A stretch of 64,000 nucleotides of DNA from Cantharellus purpuraceus (taxonomy: Eukaryota > Basidiomycota > Agaricomycetes > Cantharellales > Hydnaceae), in assembly GCA_025174535.1 (NCBI GenBank), contig JALBUN010000007.1, forward strand, positions 372,001 to 436,000, read 5' to 3'. Below, piece after piece: positions 43,725-51,070 of this stretch. Both the position numbers and the translations under genes were made by a program. Positions within the stretch are counted from its first letter, which is position 1. Every line of letters starts with the position of its first letter. The notes below the pieces were generated by a model that saw only the letters and a program-made list of their open reading frames with translations, ran no database searches and was not told the DNA's origin.

Positions 43725-44013
43725 AACACCGGAAACCATCGAGATCATAAATTATGGTGTCTCGCATCCTGCATGTATCTTGGATCTTGAAATATTGATG
43801 ATACCAGACCAAGTATACTGGCTTTGCAGCACGCTTTGGATCAAAGCTACAGGTGTAGCTGTCATTGGACATTGATGGCCCGTGAAGAACAAGGAACTGA
43901 CGTTCTTCAGCCATGTGCAATGATGCATGTCACGTACGCAACAATGCAACATGAGCGGACTTCTATGGATACTTGCATACATAAAACTTTTGGGAGTGAA
44001 CCCGTGTCGTCAT

Positions 44014-45479
44014 TTACGCTGTCCCTGTGGTGCGGAACAACTTCATCACGAACTCGTATGTGCTAAACTGAATACCTCCAGCAAGCTTTAAAAAATGTGA
44101 ATATATGGTTCGGGAAGTTTCCAGGAGAAGTGACTTACTACAAGGCGAACCAATCGTGGAGTTGTTCCTGCCCAAAAACGGGTGATCCCATCTTCTGTCA
44201 AGATCCTGTATGCGCAATGGAATGAATTGCGGTAATTCGTTCGCGCTTCCAACGATTGCATGCGGGTCTTAATAACGCTAACGGGGACAGACGTTACATG
44301 AGGCTTTGCTGTAAGAAACTAATCATGACTGTTTACTCGAAAGGCATGGATGCGTAAGTTGTAATCAGTCCTGCGACTGCGCCAATGCCGAAAGTGACGG
44401 TGCTGGAGAGCCGCTTGTCAGGCTGATCTCCTTGGATGAACTGCTTCAAAGCTTCAAAGACATGAACGTAAGCCCAAAACTCGACGCTAGGACCTCCCGG
44501 GAAACATACATTGGTAGCTTGTGAATCGTACCGCGCTGTTGGTTCCCTGCTTCATAATTACGGGGAACAGTCCTCGATAAACCCCTCTGAATCCTTCATG
44601 TTTGATGATTTGCCCTGTCCCATGGATCAAACCTTTGTACTGAGGGTCAGGCCTTCTAGCATCTTGTACCATCTTTGTCCTATAAAATATCATTAATTCT
44701 TAGAGAGCGCAGATCGATTGCGAGTCTCACTTTATAGTCTCTGAAGGAGTCACAGCTATGATCGCCTGTATATATGGTCAGTGGTCCACCTGTTATACTG
44801 TGATTGGATATGACCTCGCAAGTTCCAGCACCAAGCCCCGCTGGGAAAGGAGATCAATTGTCTGAGAGCACAATATCGTAGACAGCTTGAATACCTAAAA
44901 CGTTCCTCCCTGGCGTCAATTTCCCCTAAACAAATTTCTAGCGATGATTGGCAGCGTCACTGGAAACAGTTATACCTTGTCATCGGCCAAAAGGTGTTTG
45001 ATGTGGTCGTACGTAGAGAACCTGGTGGTACAATGGCTGAGTGATATGTTTTACGATCGTGAACTGTGCGAAGGACCTGACTGCCGACTTCGCTCCATTG
45101 CCAATGATTAATGCACTTGCACCCGAATACAATCCAAAAAACCCTTTCGTTCTAAGCGTGTTCTAGAAGGTGGGCAGAGCTATACCGAGCTGAATATCAT
45201 ATAACAAAACTATGCGCACCCTAATGACCGCTATAGGTCCTTCAGTGGTTCCTCCAAACTGCGACCTTGTCTTCACAAAATCTGATGCTAATCACGACTC
45301 AAATGTAAGTTGCCATTGAAAAGGTACATGTCACCTTACGATAAGTTATGAGACTGTACGCTCCTGTCACGTCAATTCGTCATTGGATGATCAGTGGGCA
45401 CATAAACTAACGCTTCAACTGCTCCTGCACTTGCGCCTGCCACCAGGGAGTGCAAGGGCTTCTCCTTTTTGTTAGCCAT
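44014..45479 (-). CDS. CTP1: mitochondrial citrate/tricarboxylate carrier, copy a
   Basis: A minus-strand gene of about ten small exons encodes a complete mitochondrial carrier of roughly 290 residues. It starts MANKKEKPLHSLVAGASAG. Three carrier repeats are visible through their signatures PSDFVKTRSQF, TPSETIKTKM and MPFDVIKTRMQSLEAR, with GVYRGLFPVIMKQGTNSAVRF and GLYSGASALIIGNGAKSAVRF between them. These match the fungal Ctp1/SLC25A1 family, which exchanges citrate for malate across the inner membrane and supplies cytosolic acetyl-CoA. Intron 1 interrupts codon 23 in phase 2 (GAA GC|GTTAGT at 45411). The frame is open throughout. A paralogue lies 1.5 kb away in the opposite orientation. 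Confidence 0.88.
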
Positions 45480-45882
45480 GAAAAAACCGCCAAGCTAGTT
45501 CAACAGTCTGCGAGATCTAGAGAAAGGCGTAGCTGCGCAAAAACTGCTAAAGATGACAAGGACAGGAAATATGACCGTGAGAGCTAGATGGGACTACTGG
45601 ATGATCACGAGAACGCACATCAACCATGAGGGGAAGCCAGGTCCAGTCGATTACAAGCGGGTCAGTCACGTGTTGTCGGGCACATACGGTGCTTAGTAAG
45701 CGCGCAAGTCTGTCCGTAACTGCCCTTTCATTCTGTGCTGTAATGGGTAATACACTCAGTGTCAAGCTACGGGTAAATACCTCTCCCGCGTTATTCCCGA
45801 ATACTCTGACCTAATGATCAGTATCGCCCCAAATGAAGAAGATCTGTCGTTGATTTGACTTACTGCTGTCCAATCGCTGTTC

Positions 45883-46857
45883 TCATTTGATCTCACGATC
45901 AGACTCGCGAATGGATGCCGCGAGTTGTTCCGCCGTAGGTTGTTCCGGAACAGCATCAACTTGAAGATGTCGTTCAGATCGAAGGAATGCGGCTGTGGTT
46001 GAGCCGATTGCTCCTAACTTAGCTGTCAATTTGACGTCCTGAGGAAAATCGGGAGAAGAGGCCTGTGAAAACCGGAAGTACTGGCGGAGACAGGGCAATG
46101 CAAAGTCCGAGGACGAGGGCGCGAAAAAAACCAGCCACGCCAACTTGTCCCTACCATCAACTGAATGTGAAGAACCTTAGCTATAGCTTGACACACCCCA
46201 CTAAATCGCACCGTTGGCAATCTCCCTAGCAATGCCTGAAATCCTTTCCTCTAAGTCATTGGCCGCTCTCGTCTCATACACCATTAATTCATCAACACCC
46301 ACGCTATTCTCTGACATAATGCGACGAAAGGTATCCTTATTCTTATCTCCTGTCAGATAAAACAGTTTGCCGCCAGTGCGCCTCGACGGTAGATCGTCCA
46401 AGACGAATTGTGCGAGCGATTCACTACTTCCTGCCTGAGTTGCACCGCGTATGAGAGATTCTGAGAACATAGAGGTGTACAACGCGGTCATTCGCGTAAG
46501 AGAACGTCTGGTCGATTCTCCAACAACGTAGAAAGGTGTTCCTGACCAATCCCCTGAAAGAAACTCAGAAAACTGATAGTTGATGTCCAGCGACGAGCTA
46601 CCTGGATCGGGTACTCTGCTTAAAGCTTGGACCCAAGCATCTGCTGCCCTGCTGCTAGTTATGACCACACCAACGAAACCCGATCCTTGATTGGGACCGA
46701 AACGAACGACGTCCTCCAGCACCTGTTCATTGGTAAAGACGGAATCCAGCACCTCAACAAAGTAGGGTGTGTACCCAGCAGCCTCTAGCTTCTGAACATA
46801 TGCGTCAGTAGTCAGAACGCGAGGAGGAGATTTCAGCAAGATTACTGCACGTGACAT
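45883..46857 (-). CDS. HEM4: uroporphyrinogen-III synthase
   Basis: Two exons (about 300 residues). The start MSRAVILLKSPPR at 46857 opens the HEM4 fold. GVVITSSRAADAWVQAL and FYVVGESTRRSL belong to domain 1 and the linker, and KLFYLTGDKNKDTFRRIM with ELMVYET to domain 2. Exon 2 continues WLVFFAPSSSDFAL and KLGAIGSTTAAFLR, ending near AASIRESD. The joining intron starts at GTGCGA just before an in-frame TAG. The enzyme closes hydroxymethylbilane with D-ring inversion in cytosolic haem synthesis. It lies between two citrate-carrier paralogues, and its start is 151 bp from that of copy b on the other strand. Confidence 0.88.
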
Positions 46858-47008
46858 AAGTTATCTAGAGCCTCGGCTATTTCCGCTACGGTTGGCTAGT
46901 TTCTTACAGTCACCTATAGGCCCGTGTCTGTAAACATTACCCTCAACACCTCGCCTGTTTCTGCTGCATCAACCTTTCAGCGCTTTTCTAGCGCGTAAAT
47001 CGATCGGT

Positions 47009-48369
47009 ATGTCTGCAAATAAGAGGGAAAAGCCGATGCACTCGTTACTAGCAGGATCCACAGCTGGGGCGGTCGAAGGTGAGCAGTGATTATCAACATC
47101 AACGACAACGTCTGTCCTGACGCTTATCCTTGAAGCGTGAGTCTATGTGCTATATAAATGAGTTTCCCGTAACATCCAGGCACAGGTTTGTTAATTATCC
47201 TTTTGATTTCATAAAAACACGCGCGCAGTTTGAAGGAAAGGTGGGAGTTGACGTGGCCTTCGTTTGTCTGAAGCGTCTTCTTATGTTGCGTGCCTAAAGC
47301 GCGAAGGTCCGATCGCCATTGTGCGTGATACAGTCCGATCGAGGGGGATTACTGGTCTCTACTCTGGATGCACTGCTCTGGTACAACCAGCTAAAACACA
47401 TGCTAGAAATTCATTGCTCATGGAAAATTAGATTGTGGGGAATGCTGCCAAAGCAGGGGTTAGATTTCTTACTTATGATTACTTCAAGCATATGTTGGCT
47501 GATAACCAGGTAAGAGCATTGTCTTTTCTGTTTCAAGGTATCTACACACAATGACTTGAGGGCAAAGTGACCGCTCCTAGAAGTCTTGTCGGTATGTATT
47601 AATACCAACTGTTATCATCACATTGTACACATACTTGCTTTTCTCATAGCTGGGCTTGGTGCTGGCATGGCGGAAGCAGTTATCGCTGTTACTCCAAGTG
47701 AAACAATCAAGTTAGTCATTCGATAAAAACTACTCCTTTTATCTGACTCATATTTAAGAACAAAACTTATCGACGACTCAAAACGAGCTGTGCCACAGTA
47801 CAAAGGCTTAATTCATGGCACAACCCAAATCATCAAGTCCGAGGGGATTTTAGGGATATATCGTGGATTGTTCCCAGTGGTTGGTTATACTTCTACCCAC
47901 ATCTGAAGGATATGCACTCAGGGTTTTGCAGATGATGCGTCAAGGCGCTAATAGCGCAGTCCGATTCTCTACATATTCATCTCTCAAAGCATTCGTTCAA
48001 GGAAACGCACGCCGTGGCCAACAACTACCCGGATCCATCACTTTTGCTGTCGGAGCAACGGCGGGTCTCGTCACAACATATGTCACGATGCCATTGGATG
48101 TGATCAAAACGCGAATGCAGTCTTTAGAAGCCCGAAAGAAGTATCACAACTCTTTCCATTGTGCATATAAAACCTATACCGAGGAAGGGTTACTTCGATT
48201 CTGGGCAGGGACGACACCCAGGTTAATGAGGCTAGTAGTAAGTCTAACATTCCAGAATTCGCCTTCGATTTACAATACTCACGATCAAATACCAATAATG
48301 CAGTTAAGTGGTGGCATTACCTTTTCCGTATATGAGAATGTAATGAGGCTGATCGATGGTAAAGAATGA
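47009..48369 (+). CDS. CTP1: mitochondrial citrate/tricarboxylate carrier, copy b
   Basis: Plus-strand paralogue of the carrier at 44014-45479. It starts MSANKREKPMHSLLAGSTAG and has the three signatures YPFDFIKTRAQF, TPSETIKTKL and MPLDVIKTRMQSLEAR, plus GVRFLTYDYFKHML and MMRQGANSAVRFSTYS. Exons are small and phases agree to the stop at 48369. One point is unusual: between exon 1 (47009-47078) and exon 3 (47186-47240) the frame holds only if a single-nucleotide exon (C at 47136) lies between two introns of 57 and 49 nt. Copy a has GC continuous at this codon. If that exon is not spliced in, the gene would be frameshifted. A later intron (about 47881-47931) separates YRGLFPV from MMRQGAN. 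Confidence 0.82.
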
Positions 48370-48819
48370 GACGGATGTACAAGATTCGCCGTTTCTTTAT
48401 CCAAATTATTATGAGACAACGATAGAAGTTTATCAAAGGCCATGGACAAGGTCGGTTGGTACGGATTGGTTTATCCCCACCCCTGACGAGCTCTGAGTCG
48501 TCAATAAAGCTGTTTTTCAACAGTTCCGTAGGTTTACTGTGTCCCCCTTAACCTCTTACATTCAATATTTCCAGCAAGGGAAGGTTTTGCGCAAACTCCA
48601 TTAAAAATTAACTAATGGTGGAATTTCACTGCAGGAAGCAACTCAATACATATTGGATCAACTTTCCAACCTATTCCGTCAGTAGGACCTTAAATCCTCA
48701 CCGAGAACTGATGCCCTGTAACTTTCGCCGAATTCCGTAGTGCTTTGCCTACCTTATCGTGTCATCACGATCCTTGAACTGTTGGCGGAACTCTGTTGTG
48801 TGTCGTCGTGTGGCCGAAG

Positions 48820-49125: not shown

Positions 49126-49585
49126 AATCGTGCGATCACTACCATATGTAGATGTACACCGCAAGTCATGGACGACTGATTCACGTAATTTGATTTACCA
49201 CCTTCCAAAATGAGTTAAGTGAAAGTCAAGTACAATTTCTGTTGGAATCCAACAAAAATAGGGGCCCCATTTTCTTGCAGCGGGTTGCGAGTACATTTGT
49301 AGACCGTGACCTGGTGAAAGAAAATGTGCGCTTTCAAAGGCAAACGCTTCGATTGCAGGGGTATGAATATTGAACGCTTTCGAGCTTGAAACAAGCATTC
49401 TAGTTTACCTTCTACACCTTCTAGAAGCGCGTATTATTCAGAAAGGCATACCTTTTCAGTCGCACCCTTATTGTGTACCGGCAGCGGAGAGGGCCAGATA
49501 CATGGTCTCAGTCGCGCTCGCCCGCGTTGTCGACGCGAAGACAGCTCCACCTTTCATACCTATACTCTCGTCAACCCCTGCGTCC

Positions 49586-51070
49586 ATGTCCTGCGAATCA
49601 TCGCATTTCGATGCAATCTACGCGCTATTGCCAACTTCCTTGAAATCTGCTATCGATGACTTGCTATCAAGAGCCACTCGCGAAAGTACTGTGCGACACA
49701 CTCTCGATCAGCTAGTACGATTCTCTTTGAGCATGGACTCTGGTGATGATGAACTGGATTCGCGAGAAGAATGGAATACACAGAGGCAGAAGGTCCAAAA
49801 GGCTCTTTCAAGCTTGTCCTCAGGAGCTGGGAAAGGGAAGAAGCGAGATCGAGAAGAGGATGTGCAAAAAACGTCCCACTATGATCCGAAGGCTAAGAAA
49901 TTGAAGACGGGTCCTGAGACCGTCGAAGGCGCAGACGATCCAATATTTACCCTGCACGCTGTATCAGCGTCGGCTCCCATCAGGAAAAAGGTTCATATCA
50001 CAATACATAAAAATACAATACGCTTCGCGAATGCTACATCTGGGGTACAGGAAGCTCCTATCCCACTCACCTCTCTGGCTCGGGCCTTCTGCATTTCCAC
50101 ACCCGGAAAGAGCAAACCGCACTGGACGGTCATCTTACTTACGGATGTTGAACAGAATCAGATAATTTTTGGCGTAGAGGCAGTCCCTTCTTCATTGACC
50201 ACGACGACACACCCAGCTTCTCCTGAAAATCATCCAAAAGGTACCCAAGCAAAGCCGTCCTTGACACAGTTTCTATCGCATCTTCCCTCTCGTGTTGTCT
50301 CACAGGAGCCATCCACCTCCCATTTTCGGTCTGCAGCAGGCGAACCATTCTTAGACGCGTACCTACGCGCTAAAGACGGGCATTTGCTATTTTTCAAGGA
50401 CGGCATCCTTTTCGGAGAAAAGAAGCCATGTATGTGGATTGCAATTGAGAAGATCGACAGTGTCAGGTCTCTGTCAGCAACTGGACGGACATTCTCGTTG
50501 TATGTGAGACGTGTGGCGGAAACCACAAAAGACGATCAGGAAGGGGATCAGGAGGGAGAGGCGGGAGAAGAAACCGAGTTTTCGATGATCGATGGCAAGA
50601 ACCAAGATTCAGTCGCGCGATGGGTCCAAGAGAACCGGCACCGATTCGGGGTTTCCCCCCGAGGTCCAACAACCGTCCTACAGAACGGGACAGAGGTGGA
50701 CGAGCTTGAAGATACACCAGAAAAGAAGGCGGACGAAGGCTCTGACGTGGACGACTCTGACTTTGAAAGTGAATCAGAATCCGATGGTGGCTCTGCAACC
50801 TCAGACTCTTCGAATGGTGACAGTCCGGAGGAAGAGGAGGGGGACGAGCAGTCAGGAAGTGATGGGGAAGGGGAGGGGGAGGAGGAAGAAGAAGGGCCAC
50901 TTGATCCATCGAAACACCCTCTTCTTCGTGAAGGTGCGATGCCCAGAATGTCTAAGCAAACACTAAATACCGTCGTGGGCATGGTTGAAGAGGATTTGAT
51001 GGTCTGCCCTACGCCCAAGGGAGCTCAGGACGCCGATGATGGCGAAGATGTAGACGAGTTGGAAGACTGA
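49586..51070 (+). CDS. RTT106: histone chaperone Rtt106
   Basis: One long exon. The first ATG with a family-like N-terminus is 49586 (MSCESSHFDAIYALLP); an upstream ATG at 49502 is possible. A helical dimerisation-like part (LPTSLKSAIDDLLSR...LDQLVRFSL) is followed by a basic linker. Tandem PH-like domains come next, of the Rtt106/Pob3 middle type (FTLHAVSASAPIRKKVHITI, LTSLARAFCISTPGKSKPHW, then DGHLLFFKDGILFGEKKPCM and FSLYVRR). A run of acidic residues (EEEEGDEQ, EGEEEEE) forms the tail, ending DDGEDVDELED. Rtt106 binds H3-H4, with preference for H3K56ac, and works in replication-coupled and silent chromatin assembly in the nucleus. The length (about 494 residues) and the tail fit fungal orthologues. 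Confidence 0.85.
   Translation: MSCESSHFDAIYALLPTSLKSAIDDLLSRATRESTVRHTLDQLVRFSLSMDSGDDELDSREEWNTQRQKVQKALSSLSSGAGKGKKRDREEDVQKTSHYDPKAKKLKTGPETVEGADDPIFTLHAVSASAPIRKKVHITIHKNTIRFANATSGVQEAPIPLTSLARAFCISTPGKSKPHWTVILLTDVEQNQIIFGVEAVPSSLTTTTHPASPENHPKGTQAKPSLTQFLSHLPSRVVSQEPSTSHFRSAAGEPFLDAYLRAKDGHLLFFKDGILFGEKKPCMWIAIEKIDSVRSLSATGRTFSLYVRRVAETTKDDQEGDQEGEAGEETEFSMIDGKNQDSVARWVQENRHRFGVSPRGPTTVLQNGTEVDELEDTPEKKADEGSDVDDSDFESESESDGGSATSDSSNGDSPEEEEGDEQSGSDGEGEGEEEEEGPLDPSKHPLLREGAMPRMSKQTLNTVVGMVEEDLMVCPTPKGAQDADDGEDVDELED

Follow-up and report, generated by a model that had tools for sequence, protein, structure and literature searches.

One-nucleotide exons are very rare, as a sequence-only reading of the present DNA had remarked, though published examples exist from plants and from a single family of fungal genes. 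By the accessible text of the papers concerned, such an exon was described in APC11 of Arabidopsis (PMC4674806), further examples were reported in the plant APC11 and VPS55 families (PMC8831610), a placozoan mitochondrial case is on record (PMC5436844), and the P450 gene CYP621A of Fusarium was described as the second such instance and as the first for any fungal gene (PMC12940212). No basidiomycete one-nucleotide exon was found in the titles and abstracts among the literature matches listed. Our study points to one in a mitochondrial carrier gene of Cantharellus purpuraceus, here called copy b. We estimate a probability of roughly 0.87 that copy b works and that the C at position 47136 is kept between two removed GT-AG introns, of which the downstream one (I2) would be the older and the upstream one (I1) most likely gained. 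Although exons of this kind are already known, the lineage and the gene are new, as is the prediction that an old intron coexists with an extra one a single base away. If the reading is true, copy b would be, among the literature matches listed, the first basidiomycete gene and the first carrier gene with a one-nucleotide exon.

The closest described system is that of CYP621A. According to the part of that paper that is accessible, both are nuclear fungal genes in which one base lies between two GT-AG introns and is needed for the phase and for a conserved motif, and gene models were reported to be wrong there too (PMC12940212). The Fusarium gene differs in belonging to another phylum and protein family (PMC12940212), and its base is documented by sequencing reads and conserved across many species, whereas that of copy b is predicted from DNA. 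Its origin was also proposed to be the loss of a base, whereas copy a, the paralogue of copy b, speaks for an additional intron next to an old one. The accessible text on APC11 and VPS55 likewise describes one-base exons that annotation had missed, as well as a VPS55 paralogue that has none; these exons are from plants and were experimentally confirmed, while that of copy b is predicted (PMC4674806, PMC8831610). In VPS55 one copy lost the exon through intron retention, and copy a shows otherwise.

Two further intron arrangements invite comparison, again as far as the accessible portions of the sources go. Stwintrons resemble the copy b pair in having two packed introns, an expected successive removal and a new donor by an old one (PMC5639578, PMC7138796). 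However, the internal intron of a stwintron breaks up a splice element belonging to the external one, whereas in copy b one exonic base separates the two. Because the I2 donor GTGAGT is whole and no splice element is interrupted, the pair in copy b is not a stwintron as these papers describe it. In near intron pairs, too, the old intron position and the new one are separated by a few bases (PMC2891723). The same paper, in its accessible text, considers the coexistence of such close introns within one gene very unlikely (PMC2891723), whereas both introns are predicted in copy b, one base apart.

The gene lies in the window, the 64,000-nucleotide stretch of DNA that was analysed, which is part of contig C7; the genome comprises 50 contigs and 40.15 Mb in total. 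It was modelled with a purpose-written spliced aligner, which allows GT-AG introns and exons of any length, using protein P0001 as the query. The whole coding region extends over positions 47009-48369 of the plus strand and contains ten exons, one of them of 1 nt, and nine introns. Joining the exons yields 289 residues with a stop at 48369, and both the spliced alignment and the translation give a full-length frame without any further defect. Three Mito_carr stretches were detected with the Pfam profile PF00153 (232.4 bits against a cut-off of 22.3). Each repeat of a mitochondrial carrier is expected to contain a P-x-[DE]-x-x-[KR] motif, and the translation of copy b can be read directly to contain PFDFIK, PSETIK and PLDVIK, one per repeat. 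Copy b is a predicted mitochondrial carrier of the citrate/tricarboxylate type, a name taken from annotated homologues, and its two nearest relatives among the protein matches listed are 87 and 85 % identical; the best match with a named source comes from Ramaria rubella. An Rfam scan of positions 44000-48500 returned no match at the gathering threshold, and no DNA related to copy b was found among prokaryote and viral contigs.

At the junction in question, all on the plus strand, exon 1 (47009-47078) was placed by spliced alignment to P0001; it encodes M...GAVE plus one G and ends in GTCGAAG. I1 follows (47079-47135; 57 nt, phase 1, GTGAGC...CTGAC...CTTGAAG), which was assigned by site scores and position comparison and does not occur in copy a. 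The predicted one-nucleotide exon at 47136, placed by splice enumeration and spliced alignment, is a C that forms the middle base of an alanine codon, GCG. I2 (47137-47185; 49 nt, phase 2, GTGAGT...GTAAC...CACAG) is common to copy a and was defined by alignment, site scores and position comparison, and the exon after it (47186-47240, FVNYPFDFIKTRAQFEGK), found by spliced alignment, begins GTTTGTTAATTAT. The sequence and coordinates proposed earlier for exon 1, both introns and the C at 47136 were accurate throughout.

Copy a lies on the minus strand at 44014-45479 and has twelve exons encoding 289 residues, based upon spliced alignment and Pfam; 188 of 287 aligned residues are identical between the two copies. 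As had been claimed, GAAGC is uninterrupted in copy a, and the intron that comes next has phase 2 and falls in the same codon, and at the same phase, as 47137-47185. This first intron, the counterpart of I2, was placed by spliced alignment at 45354-45411 of the minus strand (58 nt, phase 2, GTTAGTTTATGTGC...GTACAG), and the same alignment gave a second exon of 14 nt, TCTCATAACTTATC, at 45340-45353 of the minus strand between introns of 58 and 52 nt. An exonic LVYVPTD at the start of the first intron was considered and rejected, as no GT-AG continuation was found and the aligner gives the 14-nt exon, VEALITYPSDFVKTR. Five intron positions, with their phase, are common to copies a and b; they include 47137-47185 and exclude 47079-47135.

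The need for the one-base exon was examined by enumerating one-step and two-step splices with GT or GC donors and introns of at least 38 nt, which gave 46 distinct open products. Joining 47078 directly to 47186 (predicted mRNA GTCGAAGGTTTGTT) breaks the frame, as had been claimed, with a stop after 32 codons. Keeping the C, by contrast, reads GTC GAA G/C/G TTT GTT, or V E A F V, with slashes at the junctions (predicted mRNA GTCGAAGCGTTTGTTAAT), and the resulting VEAFVNYP is the sole exact family sequence among the 46 open products. Its summed site score of 24.8 bits is tied for the top among them. Only three of the 46 keep the family length, and the other two score 4.0 and 3.6 bits and have altered residues. 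Counting against the exact model, a product that uses an upstream acceptor at 47179 also scores 24.8 bits and adds HR, with the one-base exon retained. The enumeration and 144 homologues together indicate that C47136 is required for the reading frame and for the conserved protein.

Splice-site strength was judged against a yardstick of 53 homology-defined introns: 18 belong to copies a and b, I1 and I2 being left out, and the remaining 35 to genes for actin, Hsp70, beta-tubulin and EF-1alpha in the same genome. The 35 were drawn from 42 housekeeping-gene introns, seven with poor flanking alignment (four in L047 and three in L048) having been removed by eye. A de novo gene finder trained on 237 kb of contig C7 was rejected as a source, as it gave few genes and the wrong strand at the carriers, and homology-defined introns were used instead. 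Two observations on the housekeeping genes stand apart from the carrier locus. Hsp70-like sequences at G000:C8:86532-87527 and G000:C29:5751-6746 have identical scores, each with a second piece that also scores identically, and these twin places either arose by recent duplication or stem from a haplotype duplicated in the assembly. The alignment divides the beta-tubulin gene L050 (G000:C5:658950-661250) into 15 exons; internal exons as small as 16 and 21 nt are among them, and exons of very small size are thus nothing exceptional in this genome.

Measured against this yardstick, the I1 donor is at least as strong as those of 52 of the 53 local introns and the I2 donor at least as strong as those of 31, while the I2 acceptor equals or exceeds 16. 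The I1 acceptor is weak (at least as strong as 3 of 53 only), which counts against the one-base model. A branch-like CTGAC lies 15 nt before the end of I1 and passes a cut-off met by 31 of 53 introns; the branch-like GTAAC 13 nt before the end of I2 falls below that cut-off, which also counts against the model. The lengths of 57 and 49 nt are ordinary, the local median being 55, and a length of 100-107 nt is exceeded by one of the 53 local introns.

These measures bear directly upon a simpler reading in which a single intron, either 47086-47185 with a GTGATT donor or 47083-47185 with a GC donor, would give VEGEQFVNYP or VEGEFVNYP. Both products are open in frame without any one-base exon (predicted mRNA for the GTGATT donor, GAGCAGTTTGTT), and for the homologues shown the aligner chooses this solution at an intron cost of 15 or 20. 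However, the products add two residues or one directly ahead of the first signature motif, and none of the 144 homologues has an insertion there. The GTGATT donor is at least as strong as one of the 53 local donors and the GC donor as none, a much stronger donor is present 7 or 4 bases further upstream, and the single intron would have a length that only one of the 53 exceeds. We consider this reading very improbable; the transcript sequence at odds with it is GTCGAAGCGTTTG.

The aligner's preference was examined by flat-cost spliced alignment of 143 homologues (the partial P0123 was omitted), in which donor strength is ignored save for a fixed GC penalty. The one-base model was favoured by 141 of 143 at an intron cost of 10 and by 0 of 143 at 15 or 20. 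As the outcome hinges on the cost chosen, protein similarity alone is no arbiter of the one-base model; its main weight is the site strength and the lack of insertions in homologues.

The likelihood of such a junction arising by chance was estimated by holding the outer splice sites fixed and dinucleotide-shuffling the interior 60,000 times, with no branch motif required. Of the 60,000 shuffles, 3 contained an AG-N-GT junction whose site scores were as high or higher and whose two introns each measured 45-70 nt, N being C in all three; under loose cut-offs a one-base junction arose in 929 of 60,000, 259 of them with C. This result weighs upon the suggestion that a one-base sequencing or assembly error lies near the junction and that a single 107-nt intron is spliced. 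The junction was read from the assembly sequence, which leaves room for such an error. Nevertheless, the error would leave as coincidences both the AG-C-GT junction (3/60,000) and an anomaly at the same point in Ramaria rubella, described below, and the 107-nt intron would be longer than 52 of the 53 local introns, so that we find the suggestion scarcely credible.

The homologue set consisted of 144 different proteins from three protein searches, two of whose lists were the best 120 of 1108 and of 1389. Among the matches listed, 143 of 144 have the same length around the VEA site and none of the 144 has an insertion there; the EA position reads EA in 142, EG in one and SR in one. The sole misfit in length is P0002, the orthologue of copy b in R. 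rubella, a basidiomycete of the order Gomphales, which reads AGA-SR-FVNYP, with SR replacing VEA. The SR is probably an error of the gene model, and might be explained by a gene finder unable to make a one-base exon. As R. rubella with the older intron only should easily yield VEA, the misfit suggests, from the protein P0002, that its copy b orthologue has the same two-intron arrangement. The query P0001 reads AGAVEAFVNYP and has a full frame of 292 residues on a contig of at most 1120 nt; so short a contig holding a whole frame is probably cDNA. P0124, the R. rubella counterpart of copy a, and P0002 are both on a contig of 916,366 nt, so the pair is probably linked in that species too. If the one-base exon is real, a probable error in a public protein (P0002) would be explained, and gene finders can fail at such sites.

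Identity to the R. rubella proteins is 95 % for copy a (P0124) and 85 % for copy b (P0002). This lower conservation of copy b would fit a decaying gene, in which the odd junction is damage and no one-base exon works. The frame of copy b is full and free of other defects, however, with three Mito_carr repeats, and an orthologue has been retained in R. rubella and in P0001. Furthermore, of the 287 codons compared between copies a and b, 81 differ at codon position 1, 50 at position 2 and 188 at position 3; changes gathered mostly at third positions are the pattern of selected coding sequence. We regard decay as highly unlikely.

With copy b taken as a working gene with a one-base exon, the paralogue supplies a partial history, in which one older intron is shared and one extra intron is not. 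Since I2 is common to both copies and I1 is absent from copy a, the extra intron was most likely acquired one base upstream of the old one, as had been proposed, and the shared position and phase of I2 fit this. A gain of I1 in copy b would be more economical than a loss in copy a, two genes being compared, and is the most likely course. TTGAAGC plus the first 14 bases of I2 agree with the paralogue's true exon-intron junction at 19 of 21 positions, a score reached by 0 of 2000 shuffles, although splice consensus partly helps the match and the test is suggestive only. The match suggests that the stretch around the lone C resembles the old junction and not cryptic intron sequence. The first 16 bases of I2 and of copy a intron 1 agree at 12, compared to 7 to 9 of 16 in the other four shared introns.

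The 19/21 match also bears upon a rival account of the origin alone, in which a base disappeared from the exon and the frame was restored through use of a one-base junction already present within a longer intron. This account requires no intron gain and is the scenario proposed for Fusarium CYP621A in the accessible text of that paper (PMC12940212). The resemblance to the paralogue junction (0/2000 shuffles) argues against it, although suggestively only, and we hold a base-loss origin to be unlikely.

As for the gain of I1, some 57 bp may have been inserted or duplicated next to the old junction, leaving a short repeat. The sequence-only reading had proposed a tandem duplication of the junction, which our comparisons did not bear out: the shared 3′ ends amount only to GAAG (TCGAAG in exon 1, TTGAAG in I1), and I1 has no significant similarity to its surroundings. 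As many as 1836 of 2000 shuffles did as well for I1 against exon 1, 432 of 2000 against exon 2 and 688 of 2000 against I2; the comparison with copy a intron 1 was borderline (105/2000). GAAG at both ends of I1 (TCGAAG and TTGAAG) could be a target-site duplication, half of it consisting of the obligatory AG. Four shared bases, two of them obligatory, fit an insertion or duplication and fall short of proving it. An introner origin was rejected, as I1 matched only itself in the genome in a DNA search with E up to 10 and in searches with two 22-base patterns at up to 3 mismatches.

The removal of both GT-AG introns from copy b, with C47136 retained, would give VEAFV. The acceptor AG of I1 (47134-47135) is too near the I2 donor (from 47137) for joint binding, so sequential removal is probable, and each short intron would be defined on its own. 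Exon 1 and I1 both end in GAAG, so the bases before the I2 donor are unchanged by the removal of I1. Direct removal of 47079-47185 would drop the C, with the frame shift and early stop described above.

One paper reportedly deals with a single-nucleotide intron shift. We suggest tentatively, at somewhat below even odds, that this locus is a living intermediate of such a shift, in which the gained and the old intron coexist. If so, a normal gene would remain after either intron was lost, its intron position differing by one base, and near intron pairs could arise through gain and then loss, with a one-base-exon stage between; a similar gain one or two bases further downstream would give a stwintron. 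If the reading is true, the coexistence of introns one base apart, and with it an explanation of intron sliding, could be tested at a single locus, whereas the matter is usually argued by comparison only.

Two neighbouring open frames were also observed. A match to HEM4 (uroporphyrinogen-III synthase) lies in an open frame at 46201-46860 of the minus strand, in divergent orientation to copy b, the two starts being about 150 bp apart, and an open frame of 567 residues at 49367-51070 contains an Rtt106-like middle domain of the histone-chaperone type.
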